The notes below the pieces were generated by a model, which saw nothing but the letters and a program-made list of their open reading frames with translations, was not told the origin of the DNA and did no database searches. From an uncultured Bacteroidota bacterium (GTDB lineage Bacteria; Bacteroidota; Bacteroidia; Flavobacteriales; Flavobacteriaceae): a stretch of DNA of 64,000 nucleotides. Position numbers and translations under genes: made by a program. The DNA lies in the NCBI GenBank assembly GCA_902557655.1, contig CACEAZ010000004.1, positions 1 through 64,000 on the forward strand, written 5' to 3'. Shown here piece by piece: positions 12,119-30,606 of the stretch (positions are counted from its first letter, which is position 1; the number at the start of each line of letters is the position of its first letter).

Positions 12119-12328
12119 TTATTTTTTAAATTTTTTATAAACGAAAAATATCATGAAGAAAACGATCAAATAGGGTAAAAATGCTAGGTACATTATCCCG
12201 TTGTTTATTCCTTCTGCCATACCATTATTTTCACTACTTTCTAGTACAGCTCTACACATTGCACATTGCGAAAAACTAGGGATTGATAAAAAAATCAAAA
12301 AAACAGAAGTAAGAATCTTATTTTTCAT
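12119..12328 (-). CDS. Small CxxC membrane protein of the oxidase assembly cluster
   Basis: The 69-residue product starts at the ATG at 12328, which directly follows the DUF420 gene (two bases apart). A longer in-frame extension upstream would overlap that gene and looks unrelated. A signal peptide (MKNKILTSVFLIFLSIPSFS) precedes QCAMCRAVLESSE, placing a CxxC pair right at the mature N-terminus, followed by one membrane helix and a Lys-rich end. I recall similar short proteins near oxidase genes in other Bacteroidota, with no assigned function. A role in copper or thiol handling for the oxidase is inference from context. Confidence 0.7.
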   Translation of the reverse strand: MKNKILTSVFLIFLSIPSFSQCAMCRAVLESSENNGMAEGINNGIMYLAFLPYLIVFFMIFFVYKKFKK

Positions 12329-12330
12329 AA

Positions 12331-12924
12331 TTAAACATAATAAGGAGAAATCATTAAGTAAACAATAACTCCAGTTACTGCTACATATAACCAAATAGGA
12401 AAAGTTATTTTAGCGATTTTTTTATGTTTTTCAAAATCATTTGTAATGGCTCTTACGTATGAAACTAAAACAAAAGGGATAACCGTGATTGACAATAATA
12501 TATGAGAAATTAAAATAAAATAATAAATATATTTTATTAACCCATCCCCTTCGAATTTTGTAGGGTCACTAGTAATATGATAAGCTATGTACATAACCAA
12601 GAAACAAAGAGAAAGACCAATACAAACCTTAATTAAATTTTCATGAATAAGTCTTTTTCCTTTCTTAATAAAATAAACAGCCATAACTAAAATAACAGCA
12701 GTTATTCCATTAATGGTTGCATAAATTGGGGGTAAAAATTTAAGCGGTTTTGCTAACGGTAAATTATCCATCAATATAATGGGTTCAAAGTTTGGGGATC
12801 TTAAATCAAAAATCAATAAGTCAGCATCCCATTTTAAAAAAAGTAACAGTGCTACAACGATAGGAACTAGGACTGAAATGATTATAGTAAGTCTATTATA
12901 CAATTTTATATTAGCTGAATTCAT
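12331..12924 (-). CDS. DUF420 membrane protein (CtaM-like oxidase assembly factor)
   Basis: The 197-residue protein has about five membrane helices, with family-typical histidines facing the membrane (LIHENL, IAYHIT, LISHILL) . DUF420 proteins are related to CtaM, needed for maturation of heme-copper oxidase in some Gram-positives. Its place after SCO and subunits III/IV supports the same role here. It starts one base after the SCO stop codon. Confidence 0.85.
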   Translation of the reverse strand: MNSANIKLYNRLTIIISVLVPIVVALLLFLKWDADLLIFDLRSPNFEPIILMDNLPLAKPLKFLPPIYATINGITAVILVMAVYFIKKGKRLIHENLIKVCIGLSLCFLVMYIAYHITSDPTKFEGDGLIKYIYYFILISHILLSITVIPFVLVSYVRAITNDFEKHKKIAKITFPIWLYVAVTGVIVYLMISPYYV

Positions 12925-12925
12925 T

Positions 12926-13666
12926 TTATTCGTTTAATAATTTTAATAGGTCTTCTTTTAATATTGTAATTTCTTCTGCCTCACCATTATTATCTAATTT
13001 TTCATTAAAATCTACAGACCCTTTATAATATATTTTTGGGTTTCCAAATTCATCGACCCTTGATCTAATGTAACCTTCTTTGTCTATTATTGCAAAATAA
13101 CCTGAATGTTCAAAACCATCCACAAAATCAGAACTTGATGCGGTGTATAAATTAAACCCTTCATTTGCAAGTTTGTATATTTCATTTCTATCCCCGGTCA
13201 TGAGGTGCCAGTTGGGGTTTGTAATTCCGTTATCTTGAGCATATAACCTTAAAACTTTAGATGTATCATATTCTGGATTAATCGAAAAGGATGCAATTCC
13301 AAAGTCAGGAAAAGCTGTAAAACTATTTTGAATATGAACAAGATTAGTATTCATAATTGGACAAATTGTTGTACAGGTTGTAAAAAAGAACTCAACAATG
13401 TATACTTTGCCATGGTAATCTTTATTTGATATTAGTTTTTCATTTTGATTTATAAACTTAAAGTCTGGAACTTTTTTTCTTTCGTTATTTACCAATAAAT
13501 AAGGAAGAAGTTCAATATTTTTTTCAAAATTATCTAATTTTAAGCTCCTACTTTCACTTCGAGAAATATCATCATTTTTAACTCGATCGATTATTCTTGG
13601 AACAAAAACTAAACCAAAGACTAATATCAGTATGATAATTATAATATTTTTTTTATTATCAATCAT
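12926..13666 (-). CDS. SCO1/SenC family copper chaperone
   Basis: The 246-residue protein has one N-terminal membrane anchor (about 6-25) and a thioredoxin-like domain. FTTCTTICPIM carries the copper-binding CxxxC (C98 and C102), and GFEHSGYFAIID supplies the distal His ligand. SCO proteins deliver or reduce the CuA site of oxidase subunit II on the periplasmic side. The gene overlaps the preceding cysteine-free gene by eight bases and is followed by DUF420, so it is tightly bound into the oxidase assembly operon. Confidence 0.93.
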   Translation of the reverse strand: MIDNKKNIIIIILILVFGLVFVPRIIDRVKNDDISRSESRSLKLDNFEKNIELLPYLLVNNERKKVPDFKFINQNEKLISNKDYHGKVYIVEFFFTTCTTICPIMNTNLVHIQNSFTAFPDFGIASFSINPEYDTSKVLRLYAQDNGITNPNWHLMTGDRNEIYKLANEGFNLYTASSSDFVDGFEHSGYFAIIDKEGYIRSRVDEFGNPKIYYKGSVDFNEKLDNNGEAEEITILKEDLLKLLNE

Positions 13667-14372
13667 TTCCTTCCAAATTACTAATTCTTCTTATGTTGGA
13701 ATTAAAATTCCCTTTTCTTTTTTGTCTGTACTCGGTAAATAAAATTCTAATATCATCATTCATTTTTCCTTTGATTTCAGAAACCAGTATTGAGTTGTAT
13801 GAGTATAGTCCGAATAACTTCACCTCGTTTTCAATTTGATCATCATCTCTATCATCAATTCTACCTCTTTGATTTAATAACTTATCTACAATAAATACTT
13901 GGTTAGTATAATTTGAACTGTCCAAATCATAATTAGATCTTAAGGAATTAAAAATTTCATTAATGGACTCTGTATCTGCATATGCAAAATGCCAATATTT
14001 TAATTCGTCAGATTTTAGCAACTCTTTTCTAACTTTTTCTAATTCAAACTCTGAATCCTTTCCTCCGATAGAAATAATTTGAAACTTTTTAAAACCCTTA
14101 AATTTATCATAAACTAGCTCTTTTAAATTCAAAGCGGTAGTGATATTTTTCACAGGATTGTTACCAAGAAAGGATAATATCGTAATGTTGTCCTTAAAAG
14201 TTGATGAATTATTATTAATAAATGTTAATGACTTAGTTTCGTTAATATCTTCACCAACTATGTCTAAAGTATTATAGTTATGGGTTGAGGGGTAAAGAAA
14301 CAATAAAAACACAACTGGCAACAAAAACAGAATTGCCAGAATAAACCATTTTCTGTAAAATTTAGCAATCAC
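13659..14372 (-). CDS. Cysteine-free membrane-anchored protein, possibly SCO/thioredoxin-fold
   Basis: The 237-residue protein has an N-terminal membrane helix (about 9-27) and a soluble part presumably in the periplasm. The soluble part has SCO-like features: ITILSFLGNNP where SCO has its first strand and CxxxC, FQIISI as a second strand, WHFAYADTESINEIFNSL like the SCO region before the His, and NQVFIVDKLLNQRGRIDDR like its end. There is no cysteine anywhere. I infer a degenerate thioredoxin fold; a structure prediction would decide. It lies between subunit IV and the true SCO gene and overlaps the latter by eight bases. Confidence 0.6.
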   Translation of the reverse strand: MIAKFYRKWFILAILFLLPVVFLLFLYPSTHNYNTLDIVGEDINETKSLTFINNNSSTFKDNITILSFLGNNPVKNITTALNLKELVYDKFKGFKKFQIISIGGKDSEFELEKVRKELLKSDELKYWHFAYADTESINEIFNSLRSNYDLDSSNYTNQVFIVDKLLNQRGRIDDRDDDQIENEVKLFGLYSYNSILVSEIKGKMNDDIRILFTEYRQKRKGNFNSNIRRISNLEGND

Positions 14373-14382
14373 GATTTAAAAA

Positions 14383-14772
14383 TTAAAAATCTGTTTTAAT
14401 ATAATTTGATGGATCATCAAACTCGTCAAAAATATATCCAGCTTCTTGAATAAAAATAAAAGAAAGGTATAAAATAAGAAAAACAGCGGTCCATACAACA
14501 ACCCTTCTCAATATTGAGGTCTCATCACGCATATGCATAAAATCCCAGGTTATATAGTAAGCTTTAACAATTGTAAGGATAATAAAAACCCAGTTAAGTA
14601 ATTTTAGATTTGCAAAAGACTGATTTAAAACTTCAGGCTTATATATTCCAAGCACAACTTCTACTAATGTTACTATCGAAAGTAGAATAAGAACTCCGAT
14701 TATTTTTTGTGTGTTAGATTTAAACTTAATTAAACCTCTAAATATTTCCAATTTGTGTGCGTGTTCAGCCAT
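14383..14772 (-). CDS. Cytochrome c oxidase subunit IV family protein
   Basis: The 129-residue protein has three membrane helices (about 22-42, 57-75 and 92-112), the layout of the small prokaryotic subunit IV of caa3/aa3 oxidases. A conserved-looking TWDFMHMRDETS lies between helices 2 and 3. It follows subunit III by four bases. The subunit is accessory and may assist assembly or stability of the complex. Confidence 0.85.
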   Translation of the reverse strand: MAEHAHKLEIFRGLIKFKSNTQKIIGVLILLSIVTLVEVVLGIYKPEVLNQSFANLKLLNWVFIILTIVKAYYITWDFMHMRDETSILRRVVVWTAVFLILYLSFIFIQEAGYIFDEFDDPSNYIKTDF

Positions 14773-14776
14773 ATTA

Positions 14777-15757
14777 TTATACTAAATAGAAAAATGTAAA
14801 AACAAAAACCCATACCAAATCAACAAAATGCCAATACAATCCAACTTTTTCAACCATTTCATAACTTTTTCTTTTTTCATAAGTTCCAATAATCACATTA
14901 AAGAAAATTATTATGTTTAATACTATACCTGAAAAAACATGAAATCCGTGAAAACCTGTAATAAAGAAAAAGAAATTTGCAAAAAGTGGAACTCCATACT
15001 CATTTTCATAAAGATTAGCTCCATTGACAACAGAAACCCCTGTTTCTTTTAATACATTTAATGATTCTTCTCTAGATAAAATAGTTTTATGACCATTCTC
15101 ATCTAAAATTTGTTTTCTAATCAAAATATTTGGGTTTGCTTCAAAACCAGCAATTACCTCTTCGATATTAAAAGTTGGTAAGGTACCTTCATTATCATAC
15201 CATATTCCATTGTAACTTTGATGTTGATCTCTGATACTTGAAAATTCAAATGCAAAATCTTCAACAGATACTCTTTTAGATGTTTCGGCATCCAAGAATT
15301 GTAATATATTTCCACCCTTTGTTTTAACAGCTCCGTAATCACCTTTAATGAACGTTGCCCATTCCCAGGCTTGAGACCCTACAAAAATAATTCCTCCAAT
15401 AATTGTAAGAAACATGTAAAATGTAACTTTTGCTTTTTGCATTTTATGCCCAGCATCTACAGCCATTACCATTGTTACAGATGACATAATCAGAACAAAT
15501 GTCATAAAAGCAACATAGATCATTGGAAGTTCTTTTCCGTGAACAAACGGAACGTGTGTAAACACCTCATCAGCTATAGGCCATGAGTCAGCAAACTTAA
15601 ATCGAGCAAATCCATATGAAACAATAAATCCAGAAAAAGTAAGGGCATCAGAAACAATAAAAAACCACATCATCATCTTTCCATATGATGCATTTAAGGG
15701 CTTGTTTCCTCCATCCCAAATTTTGTCATTTGAAGTAGTGTTAGCAGTAGTTCCCAT
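14777..15757 (-). CDS. Cytochrome c oxidase subunit III (long form)
   Basis: The 326-residue subunit III has the family's helix pattern, with FITGFHGFHVFSGIVLN and YWHFVDLVWVFVF at the C-terminus. Between helices about 135 and 245 there is a long soluble insert rich in charged residues (e.g. VKTKGGNILQF, FEANPNILIR). Long versions of this kind are usual in Flavobacteriia. The subunit binds subunit I and supports proton uptake; it has no redox centre. A second, short subunit III gene lies just upstream. Confidence 0.9.
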   Translation of the reverse strand: MGTTANTTSNDKIWDGGNKPLNASYGKMMMWFFIVSDALTFSGFIVSYGFARFKFADSWPIADEVFTHVPFVHGKELPMIYVAFMTFVLIMSSVTMVMAVDAGHKMQKAKVTFYMFLTIIGGIIFVGSQAWEWATFIKGDYGAVKTKGGNILQFLDAETSKRVSVEDFAFEFSSIRDQHQSYNGIWYDNEGTLPTFNIEEVIAGFEANPNILIRKQILDENGHKTILSREESLNVLKETGVSVVNGANLYENEYGVPLFANFFFFITGFHGFHVFSGIVLNIIIFFNVIIGTYEKRKSYEMVEKVGLYWHFVDLVWVFVFTFFYLV

Positions 15758-15790: not shown

Positions 15791-16360
15791 TTAACCGAAG
15801 AAAACCAAAAATATAAACAAGTAAATCCATAAAATGTCTATAAAATGCCAAAATATAGAAGCCAGTTCAAAACCTGTTAAATCTTTGCTATTATATAAGC
15901 CTTTTAAATTTTTTATAAACACTACGATTAGCGCAATTAATGCAACCATTACATGTAAAGCGTGAACAAAGGCGATTAAGAAAATAAAAGAACTATTTAT
16001 TGTGCTTGTTGGCCCGGTAAAATGGTACCCGTTATCAATAATTTGATTAAATCCTAAAAATTGTAAGACAATAAAAATTATTCCCAAGAAAATAGTTGTA
16101 AACAAAAGAATTGAAACATTTTTTAATTTGTCATTTATTAAAAAACGTCTGGCAATAATTAAACAAATACTACTTAAAATTATTACCATCAAACTATAGT
16201 AAAATGCATCAGGAAGTTCAAAATTTAAAATCCAATCTTCTCTATTTTTACTAACAATAAAAGCGCTAGTTAATCCAGCAAAAGTCATAAATAATGATCC
16301 TATCCCAAACCAAAGCATCATTTTCAATGCTTTATTTCTATTATTTAATTGTGAACTCAT
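15791..16360 (-). CDS. Cytochrome c oxidase subunit III (short form)
   Basis: The 189-residue protein has five membrane helices and carries the motifs FVHALHVMVALIAL and ASIFWHFIDILWIYLF, typical of heme-copper oxidase subunit III. It lacks the soluble insert of the neighbouring long form. Two different subunit III genes in tandem are seen in many Bacteroidota; whether both are in one enzyme is not known to me. Its start overlaps the end of the heme O synthase gene by four bases (ATGA-type coupling). Confidence 0.88.
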   Translation of the reverse strand: MSSQLNNRNKALKMMLWFGIGSLFMTFAGLTSAFIVSKNREDWILNFELPDAFYYSLMVIILSSICLIIARRFLINDKLKNVSILLFTTIFLGIIFIVLQFLGFNQIIDNGYHFTGPTSTINSSFIFLIAFVHALHVMVALIALIVVFIKNLKGLYNSKDLTGFELASIFWHFIDILWIYLFIFLVFFG

Positions 16361-17232
16361 ATCAGTAAAACTTTATCTAATAAAAATGTTAATTGGACCA
16401 GCGTCAAATAAACAATACTGGTTAGCATTAATCTTTTTGCATTTTCATTGTTACCATCTATAAAAAGTAAATAAGACTTGTACACAAGAAAAACACCCAA
16501 AATAATTACAAAAATTAAACCAAATAAACTTAATCTTAAATTTCCTGTAATTCCAAAAGAAGGAACTATTGAAATAATAACAGCCCATATTGAATAAAAT
16601 AAAATTTGAGCAGAGGTAGACTTATCTTTTTTTCCAGTTGGAAGCATTTTAAATCCAGCCTTTTTATAATCTTCACTTTGTGACCATCCAATGGACCAAA
16701 AATGAGGGAATTGCCAAAAAAACTGCATTAAAAATAATGTAATTCCCTCAATTCCAATTTCATTTGTTGCGGCTACCCAACCAATCATAAAAGGAAATGC
16801 GCCGGGGATAGCTCCAACAAAAACAGCCAATGGACTAACCAGCTTCATCGGAGTATAAATAGCTGTATACAAGAATATAGATACAGCTGCTAAGATTGCA
16901 ACTTTAATATTTATAAGGTACATTAAAATAATACCTAAAACCCCTGTGGTTATTGCTAGTAATAACGCTGTATTTATTTTGATTTTATTGTTAGGCAGTG
17001 GACGATTCTTGGTCCTATTCATTAATTTATCTAAATCTCTTTCAATGATCTGATTAAAAATATTAGACGAACTAACTATTAAAATTCCACCAGTCAAAAG
17101 ATAGGTTAAATCAATAAAGTTGATTGATTCAGAACCTAATATATAACTTATAAATGAAGAGAACACAACGCTTAGAGTTAATCTAAATTTAGTCAGTTCA
17201 TTTATAATTTGTAATGTTAAATTGTTTGACAA
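16357..17232 (-). CDS. cyoE: Protoheme IX farnesyltransferase (heme O synthase)
   Basis: This UbiA-family enzyme adds a farnesyl chain to heme b to make heme O, the precursor of heme A for the oxidase. It has about nine helices. The first Asp-rich motif NIFNQIIERDLDKLMNRT and the following NRPLP are present, as is YTPMKLVSPLAVFVGAIPGAFPF. The longest frame begins with TTG at 17253, but that TTG is the last three bases of a TATATTTG promoter box. I therefore prefer the TTG at 17232, giving 291 residues starting MSNNLTLQIINELTKFRL, which fits the family's N-terminus. Either start is possible. Confidence 0.93.
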   Translation of the reverse strand: MSNNLTLQIINELTKFRLTLSVVFSSFISYILGSESINFIDLTYLLTGGILIVSSSNIFNQIIERDLDKLMNRTKNRPLPNNKIKINTALLLAITTGVLGIILMYLINIKVAILAAVSIFLYTAIYTPMKLVSPLAVFVGAIPGAFPFMIGWVAATNEIGIEGITLFLMQFFWQFPHFWSIGWSQSEDYKKAGFKMLPTGKKDKSTSAQILFYSIWAVIISIVPSFGITGNLRLSLFGLIFVIILGVFLVYKSYLLFIDGNNENAKRLMLTSIVYLTLVQLTFLLDKVLLI

Positions 17233-17250
17233 CTTGAATAAATTAAGTCG

Positions 17251-17258
17251 CAAATATA
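17251..17258 (-). promoter_or_regulatory. Candidate -7 box for the heme O synthase/oxidase cluster
   Basis: On the minus strand TATATTTG fits TAnnTTTG. It lies about 20 bases before the preferred start of cyoE, and may drive the run from cyoE to the small CxxC gene. No spaced TTG element is visible, so support is moderate. Confidence 0.4.
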
Positions 17259-29520: not shown

Positions 29521-30606
29521 TTAGTTTTGAGCAATTAATGAATTCTTAAAAACTGTTTGTTGATTGTACCAACTTTCAAACTCTTCCTCGGGTTCAACAA
29601 TAATTTTCATTTGCATATTATAATGAGATTTTCCGCAAATTTTATTACATAGAAGTAAATAATCAAACTCGTATGGGTCAAGAGGTTCTTCGCCTTTCGT
29701 AGCAAGTTCTTTACTTTTATCTTCTCTAATATTGTTAATATTAATAACCTTGTCAATCATAGACGGATTTTGTCTCATTTCCTCTGTTGTGACCGTTGGC
29801 GTAAAAGCAAATTTTGTAACCATTCCAGGAACACAGTTCATCTGAGCTCTAAAATGAGGCATATAGGCAGAGTGAAGTACATCTTGAGATCTCATGACAA
29901 ATAGAACAGGTCTATTTACAGGAAGATGTAACTCGGTTGTAATAACATCATCAGCTGAATATACATCACTTTCATCAACTCCTAAAATATTAGCTCTGTC
30001 TATATCAATTAATCTAACATTTGATTTGCCTAAAACATTATCTTTACCTGCGTATCTTGCCTTCCAGTTAAATTGTTGGGCGTATAATTCGACTATCATT
30101 GGATCATCATTTTTTTGCATATTCATAACATCTGACCATGTTAATAGTCCATAAGTAATGAAACCTGTTAAAACGATAGCAGGAATGATAGTCCAAAGAA
30201 GTTCTAATTTATGATTATCCGTATAAAATAAGGCTCTATTATTTTTCTTTCCCTTGTATTTGTAGGCGAAGTAATACAATAAGAATTGTGTTATTGTTTG
30301 AACAATGAAAATCAAAACCATTGTCCAAATCATTAATGTATCAATCTGCTCTCCGTGTTCAGAAGCTGCGTTAGAAATTAGCGGAAACTTTCCATATTTT
30401 ACTAAGGAAAAAATTGTTATTGCATAAATAAAAGCAAGAAAGCCAAGCATTAATTTTGCTTGGGTTTTATTGTCCTTATCATTTGCAATTTGTGAATCAT
30501 CAACTTTAATACCCGAAATAGCTCTTGATAAATCAAAAATCTTGATCATTTGCCATATGGCAATGGTAATAAAAGTTAATATTAAAACAATAAATAAAGT
30601 CGTCAT
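29521..30606 (-). CDS. ctaC: Cytochrome c oxidase subunit II
   Basis: The 361-residue subunit has three predicted helices: an early one (about 3-20), then two at about 50-70 and 85-110. The CuA domain has VLHSAYMPHFRAQMNCVPGM and CNKICGKSHYNMQMKI, the canonical His/Cys/Cys/His/Met ligands. There is no CxxCH, so unlike classic caa3 enzymes it has no fused cytochrome c. Electrons must arrive through a separate carrier such as ActE or ActA. It lies 15 bases after actF. Confidence 0.95.
   Translation of the reverse strand: MTTLFIVLILTFITIAIWQMIKIFDLSRAISGIKVDDSQIANDKDNKTQAKLMLGFLAFIYAITIFSLVKYGKFPLISNAASEHGEQIDTLMIWTMVLIFIVQTITQFLLYYFAYKYKGKKNNRALFYTDNHKLELLWTIIPAIVLTGFITYGLLTWSDVMNMQKNDDPMIVELYAQQFNWKARYAGKDNVLGKSNVRLIDIDRANILGVDESDVYSADDVITTELHLPVNRPVLFVMRSQDVLHSAYMPHFRAQMNCVPGMVTKFAFTPTVTTEEMRQNPSMIDKVININNIREDKSKELATKGEEPLDPYEFDYLLLCNKICGKSHYNMQMKIIVEPEEEFESWYNQQTVFKNSLIAQN

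Follow-up and report, generated by a model that had tools for sequence, protein, structure and literature searches.

The 64,000-nucleotide stretch of DNA analysed here (the window) carries, in a cytochrome c oxidase operon of an uncultured member of the Flavobacteriaceae, the gene of a protein (hereafter PS) that is derived from SCO1/SenC and has kept the fold, with its copper and thiol chemistry gone. PS is held by purifying selection, at a level as in the copper-binding SCO whose gene it overlaps. A second SCO-derived gene that is ligand-less yet under strong selection suggests a split chaperone, and we propose, with a probability of about 60%, that two proteins now share what a single ancestral SCO did, PS docking on and holding the client and the adjacent SCO handling copper. 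An initial annotation had described the protein encoded at 13659-14372 as a possible pseudo-SCO coupled to the true SCO gene, and this description holds: its 237 residues contain no cysteine, the eight-base overlap with the SCO gene lies at 13659-13666, and the anchor helix corresponds to a predicted helix of residues 2-25. The features of the locus and of its probable client are as follows.

12119-12394, minus strand: small membrane protein with QCAMC (CxxC), probable start near 12328
12331..12924, minus strand: DUF420, CtaM-type oxidase assembly protein (domain search)
12926..13666, minus strand: SCO (PF02630), 246 aa, without PS-type anchor and tail
13106-13108, minus strand: ligand His of SCO
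13361-13375, minus strand: CxxxC of SCO (CTTIC)
13659..13666, minus strand: overlap of PS stop and SCO start, 8 bases
13659..14372, minus strand: PS, SCO-derived protein without ligands, 237 aa, GTG start, no Cys
13710..13784, minus strand: C-terminal tail helix of PS, residues 197-221, common to many single-copy SCOs, not to the adjacent SCO
13902..13937, minus strand: former 'Sco loop' of PS, residues 146-157, shortened and without the ligand His
14130..14165, minus strand: former copper loop of PS, residues 70-81, CxxxC positions taken by other residues
14298..14369, minus strand: N-terminal anchor helix of PS, residues 2-25 (predicted model and N-end comparison)
14383..14772, minus strand: cytochrome c oxidase subunit IV (COX4_pro; domain search)
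14777..15757, minus strand: cytochrome c oxidase subunit III (domain search)
15791..16360, minus strand: cytochrome c oxidase subunit III, second gene (domain search)
16357..17253, minus strand: UbiA-family prenyltransferase (domain search)
29521..30606, minus strand: COX2 with intact CuA site (DVLHSA..PHF, CNKICGKSHYNM)

PMC9145763 describes SCO as holding copper via CxxxC and a His and as serving CuA assembly in COX2, PCuAC as joining SCO in this task in some bacteria, and CtaM as a DUF420 protein; the ligand His is placed in the 'Sco loop' in a review (PMC6696091). In the window, the UbiA-family gene is read from its setting as CtaB haem O synthase, and COX2 and COX1 lie about 13-16 kb from PS, COX2 being the probable client of PS and SCO. 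The genes beside COX2/COX1 look, judged from their ORFs, like an alternative complex III. The gene overlap recurs at 8-17 nt in 45 of the 79 orthologous loci with both genes, when the SCO start is assumed to be the first ATG of the frame; the named orthologous loci are nearly all from Flavobacteriaceae or uncultured Bacteroidetes, and the family of the window's genome, f1, is therefore taken to be Flavobacteriaceae. The small CxxC protein, whose CxxC comes directly after a signal-like segment, matched no Pfam or NCBIfam family over cut-off. Most of the fetched cox operons have it behind SCO/DUF420, PS present or not, and CxxC is found in 152/152 frames labelled as this protein (duplicate genomes counted).

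The membership of PS in the SCO family was assessed from structure and from profiles. An AlphaFold2 model built on 41 aligned sequences (pLDDT 85.2, pTM 0.78) predicts a thioredoxin-type domain preceded by a helix (residues 2-25), and this helix together with the N-end score described below indicates a single N-terminal membrane anchor. The SCO-like fold, at first a match by eye, was recovered by structure prediction and search: the best match in VIA-align was SCO1/SenC 4hde (Z 15.2, rmsd 2.4, 152 residues), and BsSco 1xzo gave Z 14.3 and rmsd 2.6 over 152 residues, ahead of the best non-SCO match 2ls5 (Z 12.9), human SCO1 (12.5) and peroxiredoxins (from 12.3). The window's own SCO, as a yardstick, reached Z 18.4 with 4hde and 17.7 with 1xzo. 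The Foldseek ranking of PS mixes SCOs with other thioredoxin-fold proteins at E values of 4e-5 to 1e-3. In profile-profile comparisons, PS matched 34 single-copy operon SCOs of other Bacteroidia at E 1.7e-37 over 220 columns, nearly its full length, the adjacent SCOs at E 3.2e-16 over 146 core columns and the second type of SCO in the family (4 rows) at E 4.6e-9, and four unrelated operon genes used as controls remained below 1% probability. A single-query phmmer search with PS found true SCOs of other families (L127-L132, E 6e-10 to 5e-5) and gave no match to its own neighbour SCO. The structure ranking and the profile matches thus identify PS as SCO-derived. The profiles put PS nearer to the single-copy SCOs of other families and so do not favour a tandem copy whose nearest relative is the neighbouring SCO. 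At the level of family models, PF02630 was matched neither by PS (E up to 1) nor by any of the 41 members (E up to 0.1), no Pfam or NCBIfam family exceeded its cut-off for PS, and Thioredoxin_8 stayed below it (E 0.22); the catalytic cysteine(s) of thioredoxins and peroxiredoxins are absent from PS.

The cysteine-free state is not a signal in itself and was rejected as such, since composition predicts it in roughly one ORF in four of this kind: at a Cys frequency of 0.0059, that of the window, a protein of 237 residues has a chance of 0.24 of containing none, and of the 18 ORFs in the window with 180-300 aa, 5 have no Cys. Chance does not account for the lack of all three copper ligands in 25/25 divergent PS orthologues aligned from four families. 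The first Cys column is occupied by N, D, E and others and the second by K, N, H, Y and others, never by C (n=25), and the column of the ligand His is a gap in 24/25 and Ser in 1/25. The adjacent SCO has C, C and H in 25/25, as do the single-copy operon SCOs in 34/34 when the two of family f29 are set apart. The Sco-loop stretch has a median of 38 residues in PS vs 44 in the adjacent SCO. Over the whole set, the best-matching frame lacks CxxxC in 80/80 orthologous loci, and a CxxxC SCO is also present in 79/80, the remaining contig ending there. Neither outcome that the initial annotation had named as refuting it, a fold unrelated to thioredoxin or orthologues with CxxxC, was thus obtained. 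The absence of CxxxC is based on this best match taken without a filter, because a separate zero count in frames labelled PS would be circular, frames with CxxxC not having been labelled PS. The PS rows of the tree were picked without CxxxC, and the unfiltered best matches gave the same frames; the adjacent SCOs were picked with CxxxC for the alignment and the tree, and without a filter CxxxC is found in every SCO of loci L002-L126 having one (two end before the motif). After rough trimming to the anchor, 22/80 PS orthologues are free of cysteine altogether. Without CxxxC and His, PS cannot perform the known copper chemistry of SCO in the known way.

The CuA ligands are intact in 23/23 COX2 sequences (the window, 11 PS carriers, nine non-carriers and two from f29), so loss of CuA in COX2 was rejected as the cause of the copper-site loss. 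As a separate observation, the CuA motif of all 23 sequences, from PS carriers and non-carriers alike, is CNKIC, the usual COX2 motif being CSE[LI]C, and in the window COX2 a long stretch separates, by eye, the first His from the Cys pair.

Purifying selection on PS is evident from dN/dS values of 0.06-0.14 against 13 relatives (dS estimable in 8/13 pairs), the same range as for SCO with the same relatives (12/13 pairs estimable), several dS values being above 1 and hence uncertain. When 80 genomes were searched (the 100 relatives less 20), strong PS-profile matches were obtained in 43/44 f1 genomes; the exception, G043, a single contig of 2.6 Mb, gave no PS, SCO or COX2 match. In the full set of 100 genomes, 5/61 f1 genomes have no PS match, namely G043 and four same-genus genomes that are 65-68% complete. 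Some PS-profile match was obtained in 66/100 genomes, a few of these being true SCOs; outside f1, PS was recognized by reading in 4/36 genomes (G069, G071, G072, G083), and the weaker matches read proved to be CxxxC SCOs, f29 excepted. In a class-wide set of 296 genomes, strong PS matches occurred in 11/11 f1 genomes among the matches listed. PS thus co-occurs with SCO and mostly with a CuA oxidase; in G022 and G045, both carriers, no match at threshold was obtained with PF00116, a model that detects this type of COX2 poorly.

The search for PCuAC was negative in 38/38 genomes, with 3/14 control genomes responding, and Cox11 gave no match in the window's own genome (G000; 1.39 Mb, 45 contigs, 81.7% complete). 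Since PCuAC was not found, the small CxxC protein becomes a candidate copper/thiol factor of CuA assembly in Bacteroidia. In families lacking PS, the operon has a single SCO and, where tested, there is no PCuAC; PS is therefore not generally required. A second CxxxC SCO of G000 (L001, C8:33040-33435) belongs to a distinct group that is present in other family members.

In an unrooted tree of 95 SCO-type proteins, PS forms one side of a 98/99 branch and is thus one tree group. Because the tree does not root the copies, the question of which copy inherited the operon position was approached through the protein ends, the profile scores and the slot. Loci of PS genomes that are long enough read cox4-PS-SCO-DUF420 (DUF420 is missing in one locus); several of them are one genome from two collections and thus dependent. 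In PS-less genomes the order is cox4-SCO-DUF420 or similar. The single-copy SCOs (f7, f8, f11, f14, f15, f18, f19, f25 and others) stand after cox4 in 33/34 and are followed by DUF420 in 26/34, otherwise by p91 or a contig end, so that they occupy the slot of PS; they have a similar anchor and tail and, unlike PS, keep CxxxC and His throughout. The anchor motif of many of them, 'LLP..Y...tGKHNF..LP', and the tail motif, 'DDIKVL.AEYNL.LKKN', are kept in PS. The adjacent SCO has a different anchor, and its sequence stops straight after the core.

These impressions were quantified with an N-end model built from the 55-residue ends of the 34 single-copy SCOs, on which the training rows score 11.3-88.9 bits. 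The PS N-ends reached a median of 36.2 bits (range 17.8-51.0), compared with a median of 3.7 and a maximum of 14.1 for adjacent-SCO N-ends and at most 7.5 for 52 control ORFs of the window. Mean identity to the single-copy SCOs is 0.32 for PS vs 0.19 for the adjacent SCO in the N-end, and the reverse holds in the core, 0.19 for PS vs 0.41 for the adjacent SCO. A C-end HMM (medians: PS 24.2, adjacent SCO 13.7, SCO2 44.2 bits) was confounded because its 45-residue window took in the end of the core, and tail length and alignment were used instead; the tail-length medians are 23 for PS, 8 for the adjacent SCO and 21 for the single-copy SCOs, one of whose rows is cut by a contig end. Conservation within f1 PS is best in the anchor (0.50), first strand (0.50), first core helix (0.52), last strands (0.61) and tail helix (0.54), and low in the two former ligand loops (copper loop 0.27, Sco loop 0.32), with the linker lowest at 0.22.

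The 34 single-copy SCOs were mostly fetched via PS-profile matches, which favours look-alikes, and a selection control was therefore made on 18 genomes of the class without a PS-profile match, in which 30 of the 40 listed PF02630 matches were read. Twelve oxidase-operon SCOs among them, assigned to the operon from their neighbouring genes, of which the frame L208 may start too early, have N-ends of 13-77 bits (median 43.4), and 18 other frames have at most 31.2 bits (median 12.3), the latter including L230 and L231, which match weakly, lack CxxxC and may not be SCOs; with 70-residue ends vs 55, these scores are only roughly comparable to the preceding ones. Five of the 12 (L204, L206, L208, L209, L227) score low, at 13-33 bits, and several of these look lipid-anchored. 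The control scores indicate that the anchor type tracks the operon slot without PS-based selection; the PS type is common in this slot, not universal, and its 'ancestral' status is an interpretation. By its ends and its operon slot, PS appears to be the heir of the operon's ancestral SCO, the adjacent copper-binding SCO looks like the copy that lost the PS-type anchor and tail, and the two look, at the level of sequence, like complementary halves of one operon SCO. Gene conversion or replacement could have shuffled the SCO ends. By eye, the adjacent SCO of f10 and f13 looks like a lipoprotein; operon SCOs of this look (L133, L134 and L125 from f13 and f10, and also L204, L209 and L227) have a Cys following a short signal in place of a helix anchor, as if the anchors of operon SCOs had been swapped several times.

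Family f29 presents a possible second case. Its operon SCO (L168/L174 in G112, L173 in G152) lacks both cysteines and the ligand His, keeps the anchor and the tail, and is accompanied by a CxxxC SCO elsewhere in the genome; in being ligand-less, in the operon and intact at both ends it resembles PS. Its core identity to the single-copy SCOs is 0.31 vs 0.19 for PS, and the free tree places it with f18, apart from PS. An independent loss is thus favoured by the free tree, not proven, as one clade of f29 and PS is not rejected (AU p 0.24). If independent, the loss in f29 would be a repeat of the same evolutionary step.

In the division of work that we propose, PS and SCO would be produced together from overlapping genes, PS would dock on apo-COX2 and/or SCO in the periplasm and hold the client, and the adjacent SCO would supply copper or reduce the CuA cysteines of COX2. 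The position, co-occurrence and overlap make PS a plausible partner of SCO in CuA assembly; the docking, the heteromer with SCO and the action in CuA assembly itself are what we infer from these features. The parts of PS still under selection are the fold, the anchor and the tail, and a docking or holding factor would be the simplest reading. In a stricter form, which we put forward tentatively, at close to even odds, the ancestral SCO would have split, in Flavobacteriaceae and some neighbouring families, into two obligate partners that act as one heteromeric SCO on COX2; the copper-free docking half would keep the anchor and tail recognizing the oxidase, and the copper-carrying half would have lost them.

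PS might instead belong to the mature oxidase or its alternative complex III supercomplex as a structural or accessory subunit, an SCO that remained attached and turned into a permanent component of the enzyme, which we consider rather unlikely. The conserved anchor and tail, the position of the gene directly after that of structural subunit IV and the co-occurrence with SCO and mostly with a CuA oxidase would agree with it, and an unassigned component is possible in the Flavobacterium johnsoniae supercomplex, for which a table in a review gives a map only (EMD-7447). Nevertheless, the single-copy SCOs in the same slot have the same ends, which therefore need not mean permanent residence. A sequence search of solved structures with the PS profile returned no chain at E <0.4, which is weak evidence against a subunit because the window COX2 fares likewise (best 2yev, 55.8 bits).

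A role in redox or oxidative-stress defence or in copper sensing rather than in CuA assembly appears improbable, and its model is Arabidopsis HCC2, which like PS is an SCO homologue without copper ligands beside an active SCO (HCC1). In PMC3971200, PMC6696091 and PMC6307045, HCC2 is described as interacting with the metallochaperone module, as non-essential for COX activity and as rescuing the yeast sco2 sod1 double mutant, behaviour that keeps a stress-related role for PS open; yet the window PS has no cysteine and its orthologues no CxxxC, so that thiol-pair chemistry of the kind proposed for HCC2 could not take place. Furthermore, PS is fixed inside the oxidase operon and is missing in G043, the f1 genome in which SCO and COX2 likewise went unmatched. 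By the same accounts HCC2 also differs from PS in being mitochondrial, in keeping other cysteines and in not being needed for COX activity; PS is bacterial, belongs to an oxidase operon, overlaps the active SCO and has the anchor and tail of single-copy SCOs.

It is still less probable that PS is a metallochaperone that binds copper or another metal via different ligands. One conserved cysteine (Y[N/D]C) precedes the tail in 56/80 orthologous loci and might serve such a function, but 16 same-genus PS frames (L084-L098, L112; two partial) contain no Cys, and the eight invariant columns of a 27-row PS alignment (P19, G70, F97, W127, R169, G170, R171, D207) include no His, Cys or Met. A decaying pseudogene or chance ORF, to which the loss of the family's catalytic site could point, is rejected on dN/dS, on the single tree group and on conservation of a frame present in 80/80 loci (one cut by a contig end); a stop lies inside the first-look PS match of G050, but the open frame there has 228 residues and its profile match is free of stops.

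PS has in common with SCO1/SenC (PF02630; Bacillus subtilis BsSco 1xzo, Bacillus anthracis 4hde) the fold, the single N-terminal anchor, the oxidase-operon setting and the profile homology, and is unlike it in having no CxxxC, no ligand His, a shorter Sco loop and no PF02630 match. Human SCO1/SCO2 and Paracoccus ScoA/ScoB are pairs of SCOs serving oxidases, as the PS/SCO pair would be. In both of these pairs the copper site is kept in each member. Ligand-less SCOs have been described in plants, and PS is a bacterial one fixed in an oxidase operon, apparently as the docking half; full-text searches of open-licence PMC papers returned no account of a ligand-less bacterial SCO, a scope in which reports published elsewhere could be missed. 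A review calls the complementation of other SCOs by HCC2 in spite of the missing ligands 'very surprising' and states that finding its function needs further research (PMC6696091).

In PS, evolution has removed the copper chemistry and kept the gene family-wide in the oxidase operon beside an active copy. This natural split, with the ends in PS and the copper site in SCO, predicts which parts of SCO dock. F. johnsoniae is described as genetically tractable, with an assayable cytochrome aa3 activity, in PMC8552683, which makes a copper-free function of SCO directly testable. If the stricter reading, with PS and the adjacent SCO as two obligate partners, is true, SCO would have a separable, copper-independent function in CuA assembly.
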